A DNA stretch of 35,135 nucleotides from Alphaproteobacteria bacterium (GTDB lineage: Bacteria; Pseudomonadota; Alphaproteobacteria; DSM-16000; Inquilinaceae). Position 1 is the first letter of the stretch, and the number at the start of each line of letters is the position of its first letter. Location: contig JANQKE010000214.1 in assembly GCA_028281265.1 (NCBI GenBank), forward strand, positions 1 through 35,135, read 5' to 3'. The translations under genes and the position numbers were made by a program. The notes under the pieces were generated by a model. That model worked only from the letters and a program-made list of their open reading frames with translations, was not told where the DNA came from and ran no database searches. Shown here one piece after another: positions 9,836 through 30,219 of this stretch.

Positions 9836-11268
9836 GGCCGCTCTCCCGCGCCATCGGAATGGGCGAGCAGGCGCGCCGACAGCCCCGCAGCGGCCGCTTC
9901 GAAGGCTTCTCCGCGGGCGGCGAAACCGGCGAACTGGTCCCACGACGCGCAGGCCGGGGACAGCAGCACCACCGCCGAATCGACCCGGTCGGCGAGGGCC
10001 CGCGCATAGGCCGCCTCGACCGCGCGGGCGAGGGTCGCGTGCCGCTCGCAGGGCACGTGACCGTCGAGATAGGCGGCGAACATGTCTTGGCCTTCGCCGA
10101 TCAGAAAGGCCGCGCGGAGGCGGTTCCGATAGGGGTCGACCGGCTCCAGCCCGCCGGGTTTGGGCCGACCCCCGGCGATCCAGTAGATGGTGTCGTAGCT
10201 CGACAGCGCCTTGGCGGCGGCCTCGGCGTTCGTGGCCTTGCTGTCGTTGACGAAGACGATGCGGCCGCCGGTGGCCGAGGGCAGTTCTCGCACCCGTTGC
10301 TGGCGATGGGCCAGGCCCGGAAAGGTCCTCAGGCCCTCGGCCAGCACGTCGGCCGGCACGCCGATGGCCTGGGCCACGGCGTAGGCGGCACACGCGTTCT
10401 GCCAGTTGTGGGCGCCGGGCAGGCTCTTGGCCTCCCGCAGGTCGAGGACGGTCGCACCGGTGGTGCCATCGACCAGCCCGCCCGCCGGCGCGGAGATCCC
10501 TTTCGCCAACAGCCGGTCGGCCGAGATCGGCACCACCCGCAAGCCCCTGGCCGTGGCGCGATCCGCCACCCCTTGGGTCCAGACATCGTCGACGCCGACA
10601 ACCGCCGTCGCCCCGGCCGACAGGTGATGGATCAGCCGTTCCTTGGCCGCGCAATACGCGATCATGTCCGGGTAGCGGTCGAGATGGTCGTTGCTGAGGT
10701 TCAGGAACACCGCCATCGACCACCGGGGCGCGGTCAGCGTCTCGAGCTGGTAGGATGACACCTCCAGAACGGTCCAGCCGTTCGGACCGGGATCGGGCAG
10801 CGTCAGCGCGGCCGGGCCGAGATTGCCGCCGACCGCGTTCGCCACCCCGGCCTCGGTCAACAGATGGCCGATCAGCGCGGTGGTGGTGGACTTCCCGTTG
10901 GTGCCGGTGATCCCGATCAGCCGGGCGTGCGGCCGTGCTTGGGTCAGCAGATCGATATCGCCGACGATCGCTGCGCCGGCCGCCAGGCACGTCGCCACCG
11001 CCGGGTGGGGGGTGGGGTAGCTCCGCGGGATCCCGGGGCTCAACACCAGCCGGTCGATCCCCGCCGCCCCCTCCGCAACGATGTCGCGAAGGGCGAAGCC
11101 TTGCGCTTGGGCCGCGGCACGGCGGTCGGCATCGTCGTCCCAGACATGGACCGGCAGGCCCGCGGCGCGCAGCGCCGTCGCGGTCGCCAGGCCGGACACG
11201 CCCAGGCCGAGGACGGCATAGGACTGCCGGGGCAGGGGGCTGAGGATCGGGGCGGCAGGTCGAATCAC
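9832..11268 (-). CDS. murD: UDP-N-acetylmuramoylalanine--D-glutamate ligase MurD
   Basis: Second Mur ligase: adds D-glutamate to UDP-MurNAc-L-Ala. The 478 residues show the N-terminal GLGVSGLATA motif (21-30), the ATP-binding GTNGKST (122-128), a VFLNLSNDHLDRY stretch in the central domain and a C-terminal VVLLSPACASWDQF motif typical of MurD. The start is GTG at 11268, four bases after the mraY stop. It is encoded between mraY and ftsW as in most dcw clusters. Confidence 0.97.
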   Translation of the reverse strand: MIRPAAPILSPLPRQSYAVLGLGVSGLATATALRAAGLPVHVWDDDADRRAAAQAQGFALRDIVAEGAAGIDRLVLSPGIPRSYPTPHPAVATCLAAGAAIVGDIDLLTQARPHARLIGITGTNGKSTTTALIGHLLTEAGVANAVGGNLGPAALTLPDPGPNGWTVLEVSSYQLETLTAPRWSMAVFLNLSNDHLDRYPDMIAYCAAKERLIHHLSAGATAVVGVDDVWTQGVADRATARGLRVVPISADRLLAKGISAPAGGLVDGTTGATVLDLREAKSLPGAHNWQNACAAYAVAQAIGVPADVLAEGLRTFPGLAHRQQRVRELPSATGGRIVFVNDSKATNAEAAAKALSSYDTIYWIAGGRPKPGGLEPVDPYRNRLRAAFLIGEGQDMFAAYLDGHVPCERHATLARAVEAAYARALADRVDSAVVLLSPACASWDQFAGFAARGEAFEAAAAGLSARLLAHSDGAGERP

Positions 11269-11272
11269 GCCG

Positions 11273-12358
11273 TCACCGCAGCTTCAGCGTGGACAGGCCG
11301 ATCAGCGCCAGGATGGCGGCGATGATCCAGAACCGGATGACGATGGTCGGCTCCGCCCAGCCCTTCTTCTCGAAGTGATGGTGGAGCGGCGCCATGGCGA
11401 AGACCCGTTTGCCGGTCAGCTTGTAGCTCGCCACCTGGACGATGACCGACACCGTCTCCAGGACGAACAGGCCGCCGACGATCGCCAGCACGAACTCGTG
11501 CTTGGTGATGACGCTGATCGCACCCAAGGCCCCGCCCATCGACAGCGACCCGGTGTCGCCCATGAACACCATCGCCGGCGGGGCGTTGAACCACAGAAAA
11601 CCCAGGCCGCCGCCGATCAGCGCGCCGCAGAAGATCGCCAGCTCCCCCGTGCCGGCGACGTGGTGGATCTGCAGATAGTCGGCGAAGATCACGTTGCCGG
11701 CGAGATAGGCGATGAAGCCGAACACCCCGGCGGCGATCATCACGGGCACGATCGCCAGCCCGTCCAGCCCGTCGGTCAGGTTGACCGCGTTGGACGCGCC
11801 GACGATCACGAAGACCGCGAACGGGACCAGGAACCAGCCGAGCTGGATCAGCAGATCCTTGAAGAACGGCACCGCCAGCCCGGTGTCGAGCGGCGCGGGG
11901 GTGGCGGCGATGAACCAAAGCGTGGCGACCAGGGCCAGGGTGACCTGGCCGGCGAGCTTGAGCTTGCCCGGCATCCCCTTGGTGTTGCGCCTGGTCAGCT
12001 TGAGATAGTCGTCGACGAACCCCAGCGCCCCGAAGCCGACCGTCACCAGCAGCACGATCCAGACATAGGTGTTGGTGATGTCGGCCCATAGCAGGGTGGA
12101 CACCGCGATCCCGATCAGGATCATCAGCCCCCCCATGGTCGGCGTGCCGCGCTTCTTGAAGTGGGTTTCCGGACCGTCCTGGCGGATCGGCTGGCCTTCG
12201 CCCTGTTTGTTGCGCAGCCAGCGGATCAGCCCCGGGCCGATCACGAACGCGATCACCAGCGCGGTCAGCAAGGCCCCGCCGGTCCGGAACGTCAGGTACC
12301 GGAACAGGTTGAACAGGATGAACTCGTCGGCCAGCGGGGCCAGGAGGACGGGCAGCAT
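11273..12358 (-). CDS. mraY: Phospho-N-acetylmuramoyl-pentapeptide-transferase MraY
   Basis: Integral membrane enzyme that transfers phospho-MurNAc-pentapeptide to undecaprenyl phosphate, forming lipid I. The 361 residues contain about ten membrane segments. The signature elements are all visible: PTMGG (73-77), the metal-binding FVDDYLK with Asp116/Asp117, [23 protein letters not shown], and the HHHFEKKGW loop near the C-terminus. The ATG at 12358 lies 6 nt after the murF stop. Family-normal length. Confidence 0.98.
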
Positions 12359-12364
12359 CGCGGG

Positions 12365-13861
12365 TCAGACTCCCCATCCGGCGGCCAACCGGATCGGATC
12401 AGCAAAAGGGCGATCGATATCCCCCTCGCCGATCTCGGGTTCGGCCAGCCCTTGGATGGCCTGAACCACCGTCGCCATCCGGCTGCCCAGGGACCCCTTG
12501 ACCATGACGACGTCGCCGGGCTGCAGGGCCTGGACGACGAGCGCGGCGAGCCCGTCACTGTCGGCGGCGTAGCCGGCGCGCAGCCGTGCCGGCAGCGCCT
12601 CGTAGAGATGTGCGGACAGCGGGCCGCAGGCGAAGACCCGGTCGATATCCGCTTCCAGGATCGCGGTGGCGATCGCCCGATGCTCCCGGACACCGATGCC
12701 GCCGAGCTCCAGCATGTCGCCCAGAACGGCGATGCGGCGGCCGGCACCGTCGGTGTCGAGCCGGCCGAGCACGGCCAGCGCCGCCCGGACCGAGGGCGGG
12801 CTGGCGTTGTAGCTCTCGTCGATCAGGGTGATCGCGCCGGGTGCGTCGGCCCCGCGCAAGGCGATCCGCTGGCGCGCGCCGCGGCCCCGCCCCGGCTGGA
12901 TGCGGCCGAGCGCGCGGGCCGCGGCGGTCACGTCGGCCCCGATCGCCTTGACCGCCAACAGGACCGCCAGGCTGTTGATCACCCAATGCTTGCCCGGCGC
13001 ACCTAAGGAGTACTGGATGATCTCCCCGCGGATCGAGGCGGTGGCCGCGCTGGCGGTGGCGTGCAGGGAACAGTCGAGCAGCCGCGCATCGGCCTCGGCG
13101 TGCTCGCCGAACGACCAGATCCGTCCCAGGCCCTGGGCCCGGGCGTTGCCGACCAGACGGGCGAAGTGCGGATTGTCCCGGAACAGCACGGCCGTGCCGC
13201 GCGGTCCCATGCCGGCGAAGATCTCCGACTTGGCGTCGGCGATGCCCTCGATGTTCTTGAAGTTCTCGATGTGCACCGGCTCGATCGTGGTGATGATCGC
13301 CACGTCCGGTGCGGCGAGCCCGGACAGCGGCGCGATCTCCCCGGCGTGGTTCATGCCCATCTCGATCACCGCATAGGCGGCGTCCCGCGGCATGCGGGCC
13401 AGGGTCAGGGGCACGCCGATATGGTTGTTGAGGTTGCCTTGGGTGGCGAAGGTCGGCGCCTGCGGGCGAAGGGCGGCGAACAGCGCTTCCTTGCTGCCGG
13501 TCTTGCCGACCGATCCGGTGATCCCGATGACCCCGGCGTTCCCGCGCAGCCGGGACCGTCGTGCGAGGTCGCGCAAGCCCTCGAACGTGTCGTCCACGCC
13601 GAGCAGCGGCGCGTCGGTACCGACATGGGGCGGCACGCGGTGCACCATCGCCGCCGTGGCCCCCTTGGCCAGAGCCTGGGCGACATAGTCGTGGCCGTCG
13701 AAGCGCGGCCCTTCCAGAGCCACGAACAGATCTCCCGGCTTGACGGTGCGGCTGTCGATCGACACGCCGGAGACCTTCCAGCGGCCCGAGGCGACACCGG
13801 CGGTGGCCGTTGCGGCTTCGTCGGCGGTCCACAACGCGTTGGTCGCAGATTTCGGGGTCAC
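12365..13861 (-). CDS. murF: UDP-MurNAc-tripeptide--D-alanyl-D-alanine ligase MurF
   Basis: Fourth Mur ligase: adds the D-Ala-D-Ala made by Ddl, completing the pentapeptide. The 498 residues show the N-terminal DSRTVKPGDLFVAL motif (36-49), the ATP-binding GSVGKT (116-121; Ser-Val where MurC/D/E have Thr-His or Thr-Asn), EMGMNHAGEI in the central domain and DESYNASPPS in the C-terminal part, all typical of MurF. The start is GTG at 13861, overlapping the murE stop by four bases (GTGA). The protein is somewhat longer than E. coli MurF (about 450) because of small insertions and a C-terminal extension. Confidence 0.97.
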   Translation of the reverse strand: MTPKSATNALWTADEAATATAGVASGRWKVSGVSIDSRTVKPGDLFVALEGPRFDGHDYVAQALAKGATAAMVHRVPPHVGTDAPLLGVDDTFEGLRDLARRSRLRGNAGVIGITGSVGKTGSKEALFAALRPQAPTFATQGNLNNHIGVPLTLARMPRDAAYAVIEMGMNHAGEIAPLSGLAAPDVAIITTIEPVHIENFKNIEGIADAKSEIFAGMGPRGTAVLFRDNPHFARLVGNARAQGLGRIWSFGEHAEADARLLDCSLHATASAATASIRGEIIQYSLGAPGKHWVINSLAVLLAVKAIGADVTAAARALGRIQPGRGRGARQRIALRGADAPGAITLIDESYNASPPSVRAALAVLGRLDTDGAGRRIAVLGDMLELGGIGVREHRAIATAILEADIDRVFACGPLSAHLYEALPARLRAGYAADSDGLAALVVQALQPGDVVMVKGSLGSRMATVVQAIQGLAEPEIGEGDIDRPFADPIRLAAGWGV

Positions 13862-25401: not shown

Positions 25402-26358
25402 TCACGCCACGCCGTTCGGGACGGCCGGCGCGCGATAGAGCTTTCTGGCCAGCCAGCCATAGCGCGGGGCGAACAGCATCGCCGCGCCCTGGAACAACCC
25501 GGCGACCACCGCGATCATGCCCGCAGCGCCGACCGCATTGGGCAGGCCGATCAGGCCGGGCCCGAACGCCGCGACGAGATACCCGAGCGCTCCCGCCAGC
25601 CCCGCCACCGCCGCGCTGATCCAGAGCTGGGATCTGAGATCGTCGGTCAGCATCCGCGCCGTGGCGGCGGGGCAGATGAACATCGCGATCACCAGGATCG
25701 AGCCCACCGCGTCGAAGGCGGCGACGGCCGTCACCGCCACCATCACCACCAGGCCGATCGAGATCGGCCGCGCGTTGACGCCGACGCTGATCCCGAAGCC
25801 CGGATCGAAGGTGCTGATCTTGAGTTCCTTGAAGAACAGGGCGATCAACGCGGCGACCAGCGCGGTGACGACGACCAGACGGACGATCGTCTCCGGCACG
25901 CCGGCCAAAGCCGCCGGGTCGATCAGCGAGTGCCAGCCTTCGGCATCCAGCCACAGGGTGGCTTCGAGATTGCCGTAGAGCGCGTGCTTGACGTCGAGAT
26001 GCACCCCGCGGGCGCCGGACTGTTCCAGCAACAGCACGCCCAAGGCGAACATGGCCGTGAACACCACCCCCATCGCCGCTCCGGGCTCCAGATTGCCCAG
26101 CCGGCGGATCACCTCGATCAACAGCACCGAGACGAGCGCGGCCGCCCCGGCACCCAGCATCATCGGCCAGGTCGCGATCTCCCCGGTGATCAGGAAGCCG
26201 ACCACGATTCCCGGCAGAACGACATGGCTGATCGCGTCGCCCACCAGCGCTTGCCGGCGCAGCACCAGGAAGTTGCCTAGGAGGCCGCAGGAGATCGCGG
26301 CCAGCATGCCCACCAGGATCGCCGGCAGGTCCAGTTGCAGAAAGGTGACGGCATCCAT
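25402..26358 (-). CDS. Mn/Zn ABC transporter permease (second)
   Basis: Integral membrane subunit of a cluster-9 (ABC-3 family) metal importer. The 318 residues hold about eight or nine hydrophobic segments. The family pattern GLLGNFLVLRRQALVGDAIS, followed by HVVLPGIVVGF, appears near the N-terminus, with AFDAVGSILVIAMFICPAAT in the later half, close to the homologous motif of the first permease. The ATG at 26358 overlaps the first permease stop by one base (TGATG). Metal specificity cannot be read from the permease itself. It is the last gene of the operon. Confidence 0.92.
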   Translation of the reverse strand: MDAVTFLQLDLPAILVGMLAAISCGLLGNFLVLRRQALVGDAISHVVLPGIVVGFLITGEIATWPMMLGAGAAALVSVLLIEVIRRLGNLEPGAAMGVVFTAMFALGVLLLEQSGARGVHLDVKHALYGNLEATLWLDAEGWHSLIDPAALAGVPETIVRLVVVTALVAALIALFFKELKISTFDPGFGISVGVNARPISIGLVVMVAVTAVAAFDAVGSILVIAMFICPAATARMLTDDLRSQLWISAAVAGLAGALGYLVAAFGPGLIGLPNAVGAAGMIAVVAGLFQGAAMLFAPRYGWLARKLYRAPAVPNGVA

Positions 26359-27605
26359 CAGGCATGGCCCTCCGACGGGGTCGGGTCCGTGATCGGAGCC
26401 ACCTTGTCGCCCCCGCCGGCGACGCTCTCCAGCCAGCGGATCCGGTCCGGCGGCAGCGCCCGGTCGACCGGAGTCAGGGCCCAGCTAGGATGTCGGACCG
26501 CGGCTTCGGGGTCATGGTCCAGATGGATCCGCCATAGGGCCAGGTCGCGGGCGGCGGCCTGCGCGTGGGTTCGGCCGGCCTCGGTTGTGCTGCCATCGGC
26601 CCTGATCCAGCCACGGCGGCGGGCGCTCCACCGGCCGAGGCGATCGGTGATCGGACGGCCTTCGGCCATCGCGACCAGGGCGAGCCGCTCGCGCACGGCG
26701 AGCGACACCGCACCGCGCCGGGCGGTGGCGGCGGCCACGCCGCGCACCGGCGATAGCAGGAGGCTCACCAGGAAGATCGCCGCCAGCGTCAGAACGATGA
26801 GCGCGCCTGTCGGCAGGTTCGGGGCAATGGCGGAGATCGCGGCTCCGACATAGGCGCCGGCGGCCCCGATCATCGCGGCGATCCACACCACCTGCGACAG
26901 CCGGTTGGACCAGAACCGCGCTGCGACCGGGGGGATGATCACGATCGCGATCACCAGGATCAGACCGACGGCCTTGAGCCCGATCACGATCACCGCCAGC
27001 AGCAGGGCCAGGATCACCAGATCGATGCGTTCCACCGGCCAGCCGCGGGCGGCGGCGAACTCCGGATCGAAGGCGACCAGGCCGAACTCCTTGAACGCCA
27101 GCGCGACGGCGAGGGCGACGATCACCGCGGAAACGGCGATCAGTTCGGCTTCCGACCGCAGCATCGACGCGGTGGAGCCGAGCAGGAACGCCTCCAGCCC
27201 GGCGGCCGAGCCGACCCGCAAGGTCTGGATATAGGTCAGCAGCACCAGGCCCAGCCCGTAGAACGTGCTCAGCACGGTACCGATGGCACTGTCCTCGGGC
27301 AGGCGGGTGCTGCGGGCGATCCACTGCACCACCAGCACCCCGACCACCGCGCTGGCCGCCGCCCCGGTCAGCAGGACCGGCAGGGTGCGGGGGTTGAACC
27401 CCAGGTAGAAGGCGATCAGGAACGCGATCGCGACGCCGGGCAGGGTGGCGTGGCTGATGGCATCGGAAATCAGCGCCCGTCTGCGCAGCAAGGTGAACAC
27501 GCCGATCATGCCGCCGGCGGCCCCCAGCGCGGCCGCGCCGATCAGCACCAATGTGGTGTTGTAGCCCCCTTGTAGGGTCAACACGGTGAAAAGGTCCGTC
27601 AGCAT
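26358..27605 (-). CDS. Mn/Zn ABC transporter permease with DtxR-like tail
   Basis: Integral membrane subunit of the same metal importer. Residues 1-287 form the ABC-3 permease (RRRALISDAISHATLPGVAIAF near 41-62; KAVGLILVIAIVIIPPVAA, 211-229). Residues about 290-415 are a soluble extension unusual for a permease. Its first part looks like a winged helix (VRERLALVAMAEG, then GWIRADGSTTEAGRTHAQAA). The stretch ARDLALWRIHL (352-362) and the following HPSWALTPVDRALP resemble the dimerisation helix and the AE-x-x-EH region of DtxR/MntR regulators. The metal ligands expected there (for example EHH) are missing. Chlamydial YtgCR is a known permease-regulator fusion. The ATG at 27605 is 85 nt downstream of the ATPase stop. 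Confidence 0.9.
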   Translation of the reverse strand: MLTDLFTVLTLQGGYNTTLVLIGAAALGAAGGMIGVFTLLRRRALISDAISHATLPGVAIAFLIAFYLGFNPRTLPVLLTGAAASAVVGVLVVQWIARSTRLPEDSAIGTVLSTFYGLGLVLLTYIQTLRVGSAAGLEAFLLGSTASMLRSEAELIAVSAVIVALAVALAFKEFGLVAFDPEFAAARGWPVERIDLVILALLLAVIVIGLKAVGLILVIAIVIIPPVAARFWSNRLSQVVWIAAMIGAAGAYVGAAISAIAPNLPTGALIVLTLAAIFLVSLLLSPVRGVAAATARRGAVSLAVRERLALVAMAEGRPITDRLGRWSARRRGWIRADGSTTEAGRTHAQAAARDLALWRIHLDHDPEAAVRHPSWALTPVDRALPPDRIRWLESVAGGGDKVAPITDPTPSEGHA

Positions 27606-27690: not shown

Positions 27691-28497
27691 TCAGGCTCGC
27701 CGCCGGTCGAGGGCGATATCCGCTTGGGCGAGCCTGTCGCCATAGGCGCGCACCAGGGCGTCGGCCGTAAACGTGGTGCCCATCGGTCCGGCCGCGATCT
27801 TGCGCTGGTTCAGGATCAGACAGTGATCGAAATAGTCCGGTGCGGTGCTGAGATCATGATGCACCACGACTACCGTGCGGCCCGCCTGATGCAGTTCCCT
27901 GAGCACGGCGATGATCGCCGCCTCGGTCGCCGCGTCGACGCCGGCCAGCGGTTCGTCCATGAAATAGAGATCCGCGTCCTGGGCCAAGGCGCGGGCCAGG
28001 AACACCCGCTGCTGCTGGCCGCCGGAGAGCTGACCGATCTGCCGGTCGGCGTAGTCCGCCATGCCCACCCGGTCGAGCATCGCCCGCGCCTGCTCACGGT
28101 GCTTGCGGCGGACCGGGCGCAGCCAGCCGATCTTGCCGTAGAGCCCCATGGTGACGACGTCGATCGCGGTGGTGGGGAAGTCCCAGTCGACGGCCGTGCG
28201 CTGCGGCACATAGCCGACCCGCTGCCGGGACCTGGACACGGGTTGGCCGAACACCCGCACCTGGCCGGCCAGGGTCGGCACCAACCCCAGCACGGCCTTG
28301 ATGAAGGTGGACTTGCCCGCCCCGTTCGGGCCGATCACCGCGATCAGCCCGGCATCCGGAGTTTCGTAGTCGATGTTCCACAGAACCGGCTTGCGATCAT
28401 AGGCAACGGTCAGGCCGCTCACCGCCAGCGGGCAGGTCTCCCGCACGGGCGGGTGCAGGGTCGCACCGACTGCGAGGGCTTGGATCGCTGGGCTCAT
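27691..28497 (-). CDS. Mn/Zn ABC transporter ATP-binding protein
   Basis: Cytoplasmic ATPase that drives the metal importer. The 268 residues contain all nucleotide-binding motifs in order: Walker A GPNGAGKST (56-64), Q-loop Gln99, signature LSGGQQQR (157-164), Walker B LYFMDEP (177-183), D-loop GVD, and the H-loop at VVHHD (about 211-215). The stretch YVPQRTAVDWDFPTTAIDVV is typical of the Mn/Zn/Fe (MntB/ZnuC-like) subfamily. A short N-terminal extension of about 20 residues precedes the core. It lies 45 nt downstream of the substrate-binding protein gene. Confidence 0.94.
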   Translation of the reverse strand: MSPAIQALAVGATLHPPVRETCPLAVSGLTVAYDRKPVLWNIDYETPDAGLIAVIGPNGAGKSTFIKAVLGLVPTLAGQVRVFGQPVSRSRQRVGYVPQRTAVDWDFPTTAIDVVTMGLYGKIGWLRPVRRKHREQARAMLDRVGMADYADRQIGQLSGGQQQRVFLARALAQDADLYFMDEPLAGVDAATEAAIIAVLRELHQAGRTVVVVHHDLSTAPDYFDHCLILNQRKIAAGPMGTTFTADALVRAYGDRLAQADIALDRRRA

Positions 28498-28542: not shown

Positions 28543-29541
28543 TCAGCTTGCCGCACCGAGCAGTCCCTGGAACCCGCCGGCCGGGGCGTCACCGCCCAGG
28601 GCCCGGGTGATGGTGGTGACGTTGTGGTCGAGCATGCCGACATAGGTGCCTTCGTAGGTGCCGGCACTGCCCATGGCGTCGGAGAACAGCTCACCGCCGA
28701 TCGCCACCCTGTGGCCTCGGGCGGCGGCCCCTTCGATCAGCGCCTGCACGTTGCGGTCGGCGACCGAGGTTTCGACGAACACGGCGCCGACCTCCCGCTC
28801 GACCAACAGGTCGATCATCGATTCGATCTGCTGCAGCCCGGCCTCGCTCTCCGTGCTCAGGCCTTGGATGCCGAGCACCTCGAAGCCGTAGGCATCGCCG
28901 AAATAGTTGAACGCGTCGTGGGCGGAGATGACCACGCGCGCTTCCTGCGGCACCGTCGCCAGCGTTGCCTCCGCGTAGTCCGCAATGGCGTCCAGTTCCG
29001 CCAGATACGCTTCCGCATTGGCGGCATACAGGGCGGCGTTGTCCGGATCGACCTCGCTGAGCAGGGCAACGACATCGTCCACGCCCTCCGCCCAGAGGCG
29101 GGCGTTCATCCAGGCATGCGGGTCGGCCCGGCCTTCGTAATCCACGCTCGGGAGAAGCCGGTCTTCGGGCAGGGTCTCGGCATACGCCAGCACCGGCTTC
29201 CGCTCGCCCAGATGGTGCAGCAGATCTTCCATCTGCGCTTCGAGATACAGGCCGTTGTAGATCACCACATCGGCCTGGTTCAGCAGGACCATGTCGGTCC
29301 GGGTGTGCTGATAGCTGTGCGGGTCGACCCCTTCGCCCATCAGGATGGTGACGTCGGCGGCGTCGCCGACGATCGCGGATGTCAGGTCCCCGATCTGGGC
29401 GATCGTGGTGACGATCGACAGGCGGTCCTGGGCGCCGGCCGGTCCGGCGGTCAGGACCGCCAGCGCGGCGGCGGCCGTCCCGGCGGCGATCAACAGCCGT
29501 CGGTCGACAGATCCGAGGGCAAGGTTGGCGGCAGGCATCAT
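28543..29541 (-). CDS. Periplasmic Mn/Zn-binding protein (TroA/MntC/ZnuA family)
   Basis: Substrate-binding protein of the metal importer. The 332 residues begin with a long signal peptide: basic DRRLL near residue 13, hydrophobic stretch 16-33, cleavage likely after AGA near 37. Cluster-A9 metal ligands are recognisable: His75 in DPHSYQH, His142 in DPHAW, His208 in ISAHDAFNYFG and Asp288 in LFSDAMG. This His3Asp set resembles TroA, whereas PsaA/MntC-type Mn proteins have Glu at the third place. No His-rich ZnuA loop is present. Two tandem ATGs start the gene (29541 and 29538), with AAAGGA about 10 nt upstream. The divergent mntR neighbour favours manganese as the main substrate, but Zn or Fe is not excluded. 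First gene of the operon. Confidence 0.92.
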   Translation of the reverse strand: MMPAANLALGSVDRRLLIAAGTAAAALAVLTAGPAGAQDRLSIVTTIAQIGDLTSAIVGDAADVTILMGEGVDPHSYQHTRTDMVLLNQADVVIYNGLYLEAQMEDLLHHLGERKPVLAYAETLPEDRLLPSVDYEGRADPHAWMNARLWAEGVDDVVALLSEVDPDNAALYAANAEAYLAELDAIADYAEATLATVPQEARVVISAHDAFNYFGDAYGFEVLGIQGLSTESEAGLQQIESMIDLLVEREVGAVFVETSVADRNVQALIEGAAARGHRVAIGGELFSDAMGSAGTYEGTYVGMLDHNVTTITRALGGDAPAGGFQGLLGAAS

Positions 29542-29736: not shown

Positions 29737-30219
29737 ATGACCGAACTCCAAGACGCCGATCAGCAGGCGGCGCAGTTCCAGCGCATCCGCGATGCCCACC
29801 GCCTGGAGGTGGCGGAGGACTACGTCGAGATGATCGCCGATCTGATCGAGGCGCAGGGCGAGGCGCGGGCCGTCGATCTCGCCAGCCGGTTCGGCGTGAC
29901 CAACGCGACCGTCAACAACACGATCGCCCGGTTGCAGCGGGAAGGGCTGGTCCACAGCCGCCCGTACCGGTCGATCTTCCTGACCGAGGAGGGCTGGTCC
30001 ATGGCCCGGGCCTCGCGGGAGCGGCATGTCATCGTCCGGGACTTCCTGCTTGCGATCGGCGTCCGGCGCTCGGTGGCCGAGGCCGATGCCGAAGGCGTCG
30101 AACACCATGTCAGCGCCGAAACCCTGGCCGCCTTCAAACGTCTGACCCGGGAGTTGGCGCGAACCGGGGGCTCGGCTGCGGCCGATCGCGGCGCTCCGCG
30201 CCCGGCGGCGGCCGAATAG
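29737..30219 (+). CDS. mntR: Manganese-responsive regulator MntR
   Basis: DtxR-family metal sensor that represses metal uptake when manganese is plentiful. The 160 residues have an N-terminal winged helix-turn-helix (about 22-92; recognition region GVTNATVNNTIARL) and a dimerisation domain ending in DAEGVEHHVS. All six ligands of the binuclear Mn site known from B. subtilis MntR have counterparts: Asp28, Glu31, His97, Glu119, Glu122 and His123. A disordered Ala/Arg tail (145-160) follows. The ATG at 29737 gives the family-typical N-terminus; a longer in-frame version would run through the operator region and is rejected. It is divergent from the Mn/Zn transporter operon, its likely target. 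Confidence 0.93.
   Translation: MTELQDADQQAAQFQRIRDAHRLEVAEDYVEMIADLIEAQGEARAVDLASRFGVTNATVNNTIARLQREGLVHSRPYRSIFLTEEGWSMARASRERHVIVRDFLLAIGVRRSVAEADAEGVEHHVSAETLAAFKRLTRELARTGGSAAADRGAPRPAAAE

Follow-up and report, generated by a model that had tools for sequence, protein, structure and literature searches.

The C-terminal tail of the first permease in an alphaproteobacterial cluster 9 metal importer descends, as judged from profile comparison and predicted structure, from a DtxR/MntR-type regulator domain that has parted with one helix of its helix-turn-helix (HTH) motif and with its metal site. Our best reading, which we put at roughly 60%, is that the transporter retains a retired repressor domain as a structural or allosteric module, a function that we infer. 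That a repressor domain fused to an importer became, in one lineage, a conserved regulatory or assembly domain binding neither DNA nor metal, even in genomes without DtxR-family proteins, is a proposition we hold at a little better than even odds.

The importer locus and its neighbouring genes

Within the window, the whole 35,135-nucleotide stretch of DNA that was analysed, the minus strand carries a four-gene, manganese-type importer encoding a substrate-binding protein, an ATPase and two permeases, and a genuine MntR is encoded divergently from it:

25402-26358, minus strand: permease 2, ABC-3, without a DtxR-type tail; 318 amino acids
26358-27605, minus strand: permease 1, ABC-3, with a C-terminal tail; 415 amino acids (Pfam ABC-3, E 5e-57, residues 20-284)
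26754-27548, minus strand: membrane (ABC-3) domain of permease 1, residues 20-284
27691-28497, minus strand: importer ATPase (Pfam ABC_tran; the best-scoring NCBIfam models, those for Mn/Fe importer ATPases, stay under cut-off)
28543-29541, minus strand: substrate-binding protein of the ZnuA/cluster 9 family (Pfam ZnuA, E 3e-75)
29737-30219, plus strand: genuine MntR, divergent (NCBIfam MntR equivalog, above cut-off; six of six metal ligands present)

Permease 1 scored 193.7 bits against PF00950 (cut-off 20.1), placing it in the ABC-3 (cluster 9) family. Its best sequence relatives in the PDB were the permeases of 7kyo/7kyp (E 1e-25) and ZnuB 9oko, and none of these solved permeases aligned past residue 288. 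The stop codon of permease 1 overlaps the ATG of permease 2 in the string TGATG (26356-26360), which suggests translational coupling of the two genes. The annotation of Azospirillum ramasamyi lists the same importer gene order, divergent mntR included. Numbered from the ATG at 29737, the window MntR holds His97, Glu119, Glu122 and His123, just as the sequence-only reading had described, together with Asp28 and Glu31. A scan of the region between MntR and the importer for an inverted repeat, as a candidate MntR box, found none. Elsewhere in the window, a tRNA-Arg called by ARAGORN (11570-11659, minus strand) lies inside a same-strand long ORF (11265-12377) and is probably a false positive.

The tail belongs to the DtxR/MntR family

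In permease 1, the Pfam ABC-3 match stops at residue 284, and the remaining 131 residues constitute the tail; nucleotides 26358-26740 encode residues 289-415 plus the stop codon. The two tail strings quoted in the sequence-only reading were located where it had placed them, ARDLALWRIHL at residues 352-362 and HPSWALTPVDRALP at residues 372-385. The predicted parts of the tail are as follows:

26361-26756, minus strand: cytoplasmic tail, residues 284-415; a reduced winged helix followed by a DtxR-type dimerisation region (pLDDT, fold search, hhalign)
26661-26750, minus strand: tail helix 1, residues 286-315; a single long helix that sets in where the membrane domain ends (model)
26616-26642, minus strand: the one HTH-type helix that is left, residues 322-330, with no counterpart of HTH helix 2 (model comparison)
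26514-26582, minus strand: helix 4, residues 342-364; contains ARDLALWRIHL, with Leu at the His77 metal-ligand position
26454-26477, minus strand: LTPVDRAL, residues 377-384; corresponds to the MntR segment with Glu99, Glu102 and His103, replaced here by Thr, Asp and Arg
26418-26450, minus strand: final helix of the tail, residues 386-396; corresponds to DtxR helix 6 (models)

Direct searches revealed nothing of this ancestry. No Pfam model matched the window tail at E 1, neither PF02742 nor PF01325 was reached at that level by the window tail or by the scanned alphaproteobacterial tails, and Pfam scans of 23 tails returned no DtxR model. Searching the PDB with the tail by phmmer gave no match, and a tail-profile search gave weak unrelated matches only, such as histone H2A.Z. 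The tail is too diverged for Pfam or sequence search, so that its link to DtxR needs either Planctomycetota intermediates or a structure model.

The intermediates supply a two-step homology chain. The same tail occurs on about 46 distinct alphaproteobacterial orthologues, and the profile built from the alphaproteobacterial tails matched a profile of Planctomycetota permease tails in hhalign at 97%, with a score of 64-71 over 80 columns; 40 column-shuffled control profiles reached at most 16.3 and a reversed profile 19.2. The window tail on its own scored 35.6 against the Planctomycetota profile. The Planctomycetota tails are in turn clear PF02742 domains (17/17, best 1.4e-29), with matches to DtxR-family PDB chains at 3e-25. 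Against free regulators, the alphaproteobacterial profile scored more weakly (36.3, with controls at 21.2).

Structure prediction led to the same family. AlphaFold2, run on the window tail with 22 homologues, gave a mean pLDDT of 87. In Foldseek the E-values of the model were weak (best 0.33, probability 0.87), and the first 33 matches were all DtxR, IdeR or MntR. VIA-align likewise ranked 39 DtxR/MntR/IdeR entries of the PDB at the top, above the MarR-type rows, over 92-109 residues and with Z of 5.3-6.7, a range that is moderate and weak by itself and that is in line with the profile comparison, an independent source of evidence. As a control, the Planctomycetota tail closest by tree position (L184) was also modelled, and it reached Z 14.1 to MntR and a Foldseek E of 5e-5. 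Taken from profiles and predicted folds, DtxR/MntR regulator ancestry and a two-domain fold are confirmed for the tail, and the earlier proposal of a C-terminal winged helix with a DtxR dimerisation region holds, since the profile scores exceed the shuffled controls and the top folds are all of this family. The profile comparison and the structure prediction that it had recommended both bore it out, though the profile link runs through the Planctomycetota PF02742 tails with no direct Pfam match.

Loss of an HTH helix

Comparison of the two models locates the main structural change in the winged helix. Both models contain helix 1, helix 4 and helix 6. Between helix 1 and helix 4, the L184 model has a pair of HTH helices and a wing of two strands, where the window tail has a single HTH-type helix and a reduced wing; helix 5, present in L184, is broken in the window tail. 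Helix 1 and the wing are a median of 33 residues apart in alphaproteobacterial tails, whereas the median is 54 for Planctomycetota tails and 55 for free regulators. Spacing and models together indicate that a 21-residue deletion removed one HTH helix from the alphaproteobacterial tails. By both measures, the window tail lacks the complete winged HTH for DNA binding.

Among the Planctomycetota tails, the DNA-binding model PF01325 was recognised in only 1/17, whereas the dimerisation half was recognised in all 17, a disparity which suggests that the DNA-binding signature was lost before the metal site.

These observations bear on the possibility that the tail is freed by proteolysis as a metal-dependent repressor, in the manner of the chlamydial fusion YtgCR. 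The architecture, a permease followed by a DtxR-type domain, is that of the cleaved YtgCR (PMC7755916, PMC5599777). However, every alphaproteobacterial tail is without the HTH helix and without five of the six metal ligands, and internal start codons in the tail are not conserved, Met313 being replaced by Leu in most orthologues. Since one helix of the HTH is gone, a releasable repressor of the YtgR kind is very unlikely here, close to negligible.

Loss of the metal site and replacement of its ligands

The sequence-only reading had also stated that the metal ligands are absent from the tail, and the alignment agrees: at His77, Glu99, Glu102 and His103 (B. subtilis numbering) the window tail has L, T, D and R, and at the Asp8- and Glu11-equivalent positions, which lie in tail helix 1, L and V. 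We examined these columns in a joint alignment of 28 free regulators, 25 Planctomycetota tails and 47 alphaproteobacterial tails, where counts are of sequences and not of independent events, the tails of rows L009 and L043 being identical. Asp8, Glu11, His77, Glu99 and His103 are kept in 0/47 alphaproteobacterial tails; Glu102 is kept in 40/47, with Asp in its place in 6/47. The replacements are uniform, His77 having become Glu in 44/47 and Asp8 having become Gln in 45/47. The Planctomycetota tails keep His77 in 21/25, Glu102 in 25/25 and His103 in 23/25, and Glu11 in only 2/25.

Such uniformity might point to a rebuilt acidic site through which the tail binds metal or another ligand and inhibits import in replete cells, much as the regulatory domains of MetNI and ModABC do. 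Such a sensor would be consistent with Glu at the His77 position, an acidic residue at Glu102 (46/47) and the Gln fixed at Asp8, as well as with the retention of most ligands by the Planctomycetota tails, and ABC importers with substrate feedback through cytoplasmic domains provide a precedent (PMC10710835). Yet His77, Glu99 and His103 are lost in all the alphaproteobacterial tails, the window tail carries its four substitutions at the ligand positions, the clade of the window conserves no alternative ligand cluster, and the regulatory domain of MetNI and ModABC sits on the ATPase. We consider a sensor unlikely, while inhibition of transport as such, which the sequence-only reading had raised, may belong to what the tail does.

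One residue distinguishes the permease tails as a group. The Trp of helix 4 (in ARDLALWRIHL), at DtxR position 82, is invariant among them, being found in 47/47 alphaproteobacterial and 25/25 Planctomycetota tails versus 0/28 free regulators, a contrast to be taken as a lead, since the regulator set is small and free regulators with Trp 82 may exist outside it. One further ORF with Trp at this position was found at L161:1201-2241 (Planctomycetota, G251). Its 346-residue product begins with one membrane helix, similar to the last part of an ABC-3 permease, and continues into a DtxR-type domain containing HRLWE and DPHGDPIP and then FeoA/SH3-like repeats; an apparent FeoB GTPase lies just downstream. 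From its sequence, this ORF reads as a membrane-anchored DtxR without an ABC transporter.

Distribution and evolutionary history of the tail

Orthologues were collected from genomes, and the alphaproteobacterial carriers include Shimia, Ruegeria, Roseovarius, Planktotalea, Chelativorans and Microvirga. Their tails span about 116-132 residues and share 29-37% identity with the window protein, versus 51-61% for the membrane domain. Two adjacent permeases are present in all 41 alphaproteobacterial loci examined, and in the inspected loci only the first bears a tail, the second ending about 13 residues or less past the membrane domain. The survey proposed in the sequence-only reading, of permeases with intact and decayed tails, yielded full tails in Planctomycetota, reduced ones in Alphaproteobacteria and none on the first permease of the alphaproteobacterial systems L191 and L193; this last loss indicates that the tail is not essential for transport.

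The Planctomycetota permease tails are longer and carry the motifs HRLWE ... EH ... DPHG..IP. In four Planctomycetota loci (L180, L181, L183 and L184), PF02742-type tails occur on both adjacent permeases of one operon, so that two DtxR-type domains could pair inside one transporter. Winged-helix-only tails occur on importers of the same type in L012-L015, Paracoccus L203, Halomonas L200 and Deinococcus L202, and on both subunits in Paracoccus. A free 131-residue DtxR-type regulator is encoded on a plasmid of Deinococcus peraridilitoris (L199:4423-4818), its start overlapping the end of a second, winged-helix-tailed permease; it is perhaps a split or regained regulator. A tblastn search of plasmids with an Anaerolineae tail gave one marginal match only.

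The membrane-domain tree, made by a quick method with SH-aLRT support only, resolved two permease lineages, both with full-tailed Planctomycetota members. The alphaproteobacterial first permeases adjoin full-tailed Planctomycetota permeases, and the tailless second permeases adjoin a tailed one. This topology fits loss and reduction of the tail from a tailed ancestor, a direction that would depend on the root.

Selection on the tail

Within four close pairs (L025/L035, L037/L048, L051/L052 and L040/L047), the dN/dS of the tail is 0.05-0.09, comparable to that of the membrane domain (0.03-0.16). Such low values indicate that the tail is maintained in those lineages; they cover close pairs elsewhere in Alphaproteobacteria, the window tail having no close relative. 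The window copy is among the most diverged and departs from several conserved positions, for instance with Leu where other tails usually have Glu (the His77 position), and constraint there could be relaxed.

These data weigh on the suggestion that the tail is a remnant of a YtgCR-like fusion. Descent from such a fusion is supported, as it fits the tree in which full-tailed Planctomycetota permeases adjoin the first permeases; decay is not supported. A functionless, drifting remnant would account for the missing metal site and HTH helix, for the lower identity of the tail than of the membrane domain, and for its complete disappearance in L191 and L193. Against this, the close-pair values are low, the reading frame is intact in the retrieved alphaproteobacterial copies, the Trp, Thr and Gly positions are invariant, the fold is predicted confidently by AlphaFold2, and the substitutions at ligand positions are fixed rather than random. 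Because of purifying selection in Alphaproteobacteria and the new residues fixed at ligand positions, decay is unsupported, and we regard a functionless remnant as quite improbable.

Relation of the tail to MntR

The sequence-only reading had offered interaction with MntR as a further role. The tail might dock to MntR or compete with it, for example as a heterodimer through the dimerisation region, tuning repression to transporter abundance; a genuine MntR is divergent from the importer in the window and in Azospirillum, and the dimerisation half is the better-kept part of the tail. Few tail-bearing systems have such a partner, however. A DtxR-type ORF lies within 4 kb at only 4/41 alphaproteobacterial loci. 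PF02742 gave no match at E 0.1 in 27/37 tail-bearing genomes (36 distinct, as G156 and G286 appear identical), among them G008, a nearby genome of the same family as the window, and G037, with an estimated completeness of 100%. The count may be somewhat too high, given incomplete genomes in the set and the chance of missing a diverged MntR. Given these low numbers, MntR interaction is unlikely as a general function and docking, as an account of the tail, is decidedly remote, although it could be a local addition in the window's clade.

A proposed course of events

We return to the preferred reading, a retired repressor domain serving the transporter. A DtxR/MntR-type regulator domain would have become fused to the permease of a cluster 9 metal importer, and the ancestral tail, as still seen in Planctomycetota, probably bound metal and fed back on transport or expression. 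In the alphaproteobacterial line, sequence and models suggest that DNA reading was lost with the deleted HTH helix and that the MntR/DtxR metal site was lost as well, while the winged-helix/dimerisation scaffold was kept. Tethered through one long helix to the last membrane helix, the tail would lie at the cytoplasmic face near the ATPases. There it may stabilise assembly of the permease pair or modulate ATPase coupling, acting on neither transcription nor MntR.

Tails that PF02742 recognises in Planctomycetota, metal-dead and HTH-less tails in Alphaproteobacteria, and permeases without any tail form a natural series for asking whether a permease-borne DtxR domain works on gene expression, as it does in Chlamydia, or on the transporter. 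The solved permeases that match by sequence end at the membrane domain, and these widespread cytoplasmic tails lie beyond structural coverage. The series also carries a warning that homology alone is insufficient to name such permeases repressor fusions.

Comparison with known systems

The closest described parallel is Chlamydia trachomatis YtgCR (CT069), compared here through its description in PMC7755916 and PMC5599777. Both proteins join an ABC-type metal permease and a C-terminal DtxR-like domain in a single reading frame. YtgCR is cleaved to release an iron-dependent repressor (PMC7755916, PMC5599777) and its YtgR part keeps the metal residues (PMC5599777), whereas the window tail has neither the ligands nor the HTH helix, and the window encodes a separate MntR next door. 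Orthologous permease-repressor fusions occur in 11 phyla, according to a passage of the review PMC5599777 that cites Thompson et al. 2012.

With the free regulators MntR, DtxR and IdeR (PF01325 + PF02742), the tail shares the two-domain fold, the helix order, the T..G motif of the wing and the dimerisation helices. It differs in falling below PF02742/PF01325 detection, in missing HTH helix 2 and five of the six ligands, and in being joined to a membrane domain. By membrane-domain tree and tail profile, the nearest full-tailed relatives are the Planctomycetota PF02742-tailed ABC-3 permeases (L058, L061, L176-L186), which have Trp at position 82 in common with the alphaproteobacterial tails; they retain HRLWE...EH and most ligands, all winged-HTH helices appear in the L184 model, and their tails often occur on both permeases. 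The winged-helix-only tails (L012-L015, L203, L200, L202) also place a short winged helix behind the last membrane helix in importers of this type, but are without the dimerisation region, and their HTH part looks longer than that of the window.

MetNI and ModABC, in which transinhibition acts through cytoplasmic domains on the ATPase (PMC10710835), offer a possible working analogy of a cytoplasmic domain modulating an ABC importer. Their domain has another fold and a known ligand and sits on the ATPase, whereas the window domain sits on the permease, and no ligand site was found in it. The literature searched, largely outside subscription papers, describes no specific tail function for Mn importers, and within it we found no account of the conserved metal-dead, HTH-less alphaproteobacterial tail or of the tails consisting of a winged helix only in Paracoccus, Halomonas and Deinococcus. 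The permease-repressor fusion itself is already known from YtgCR.
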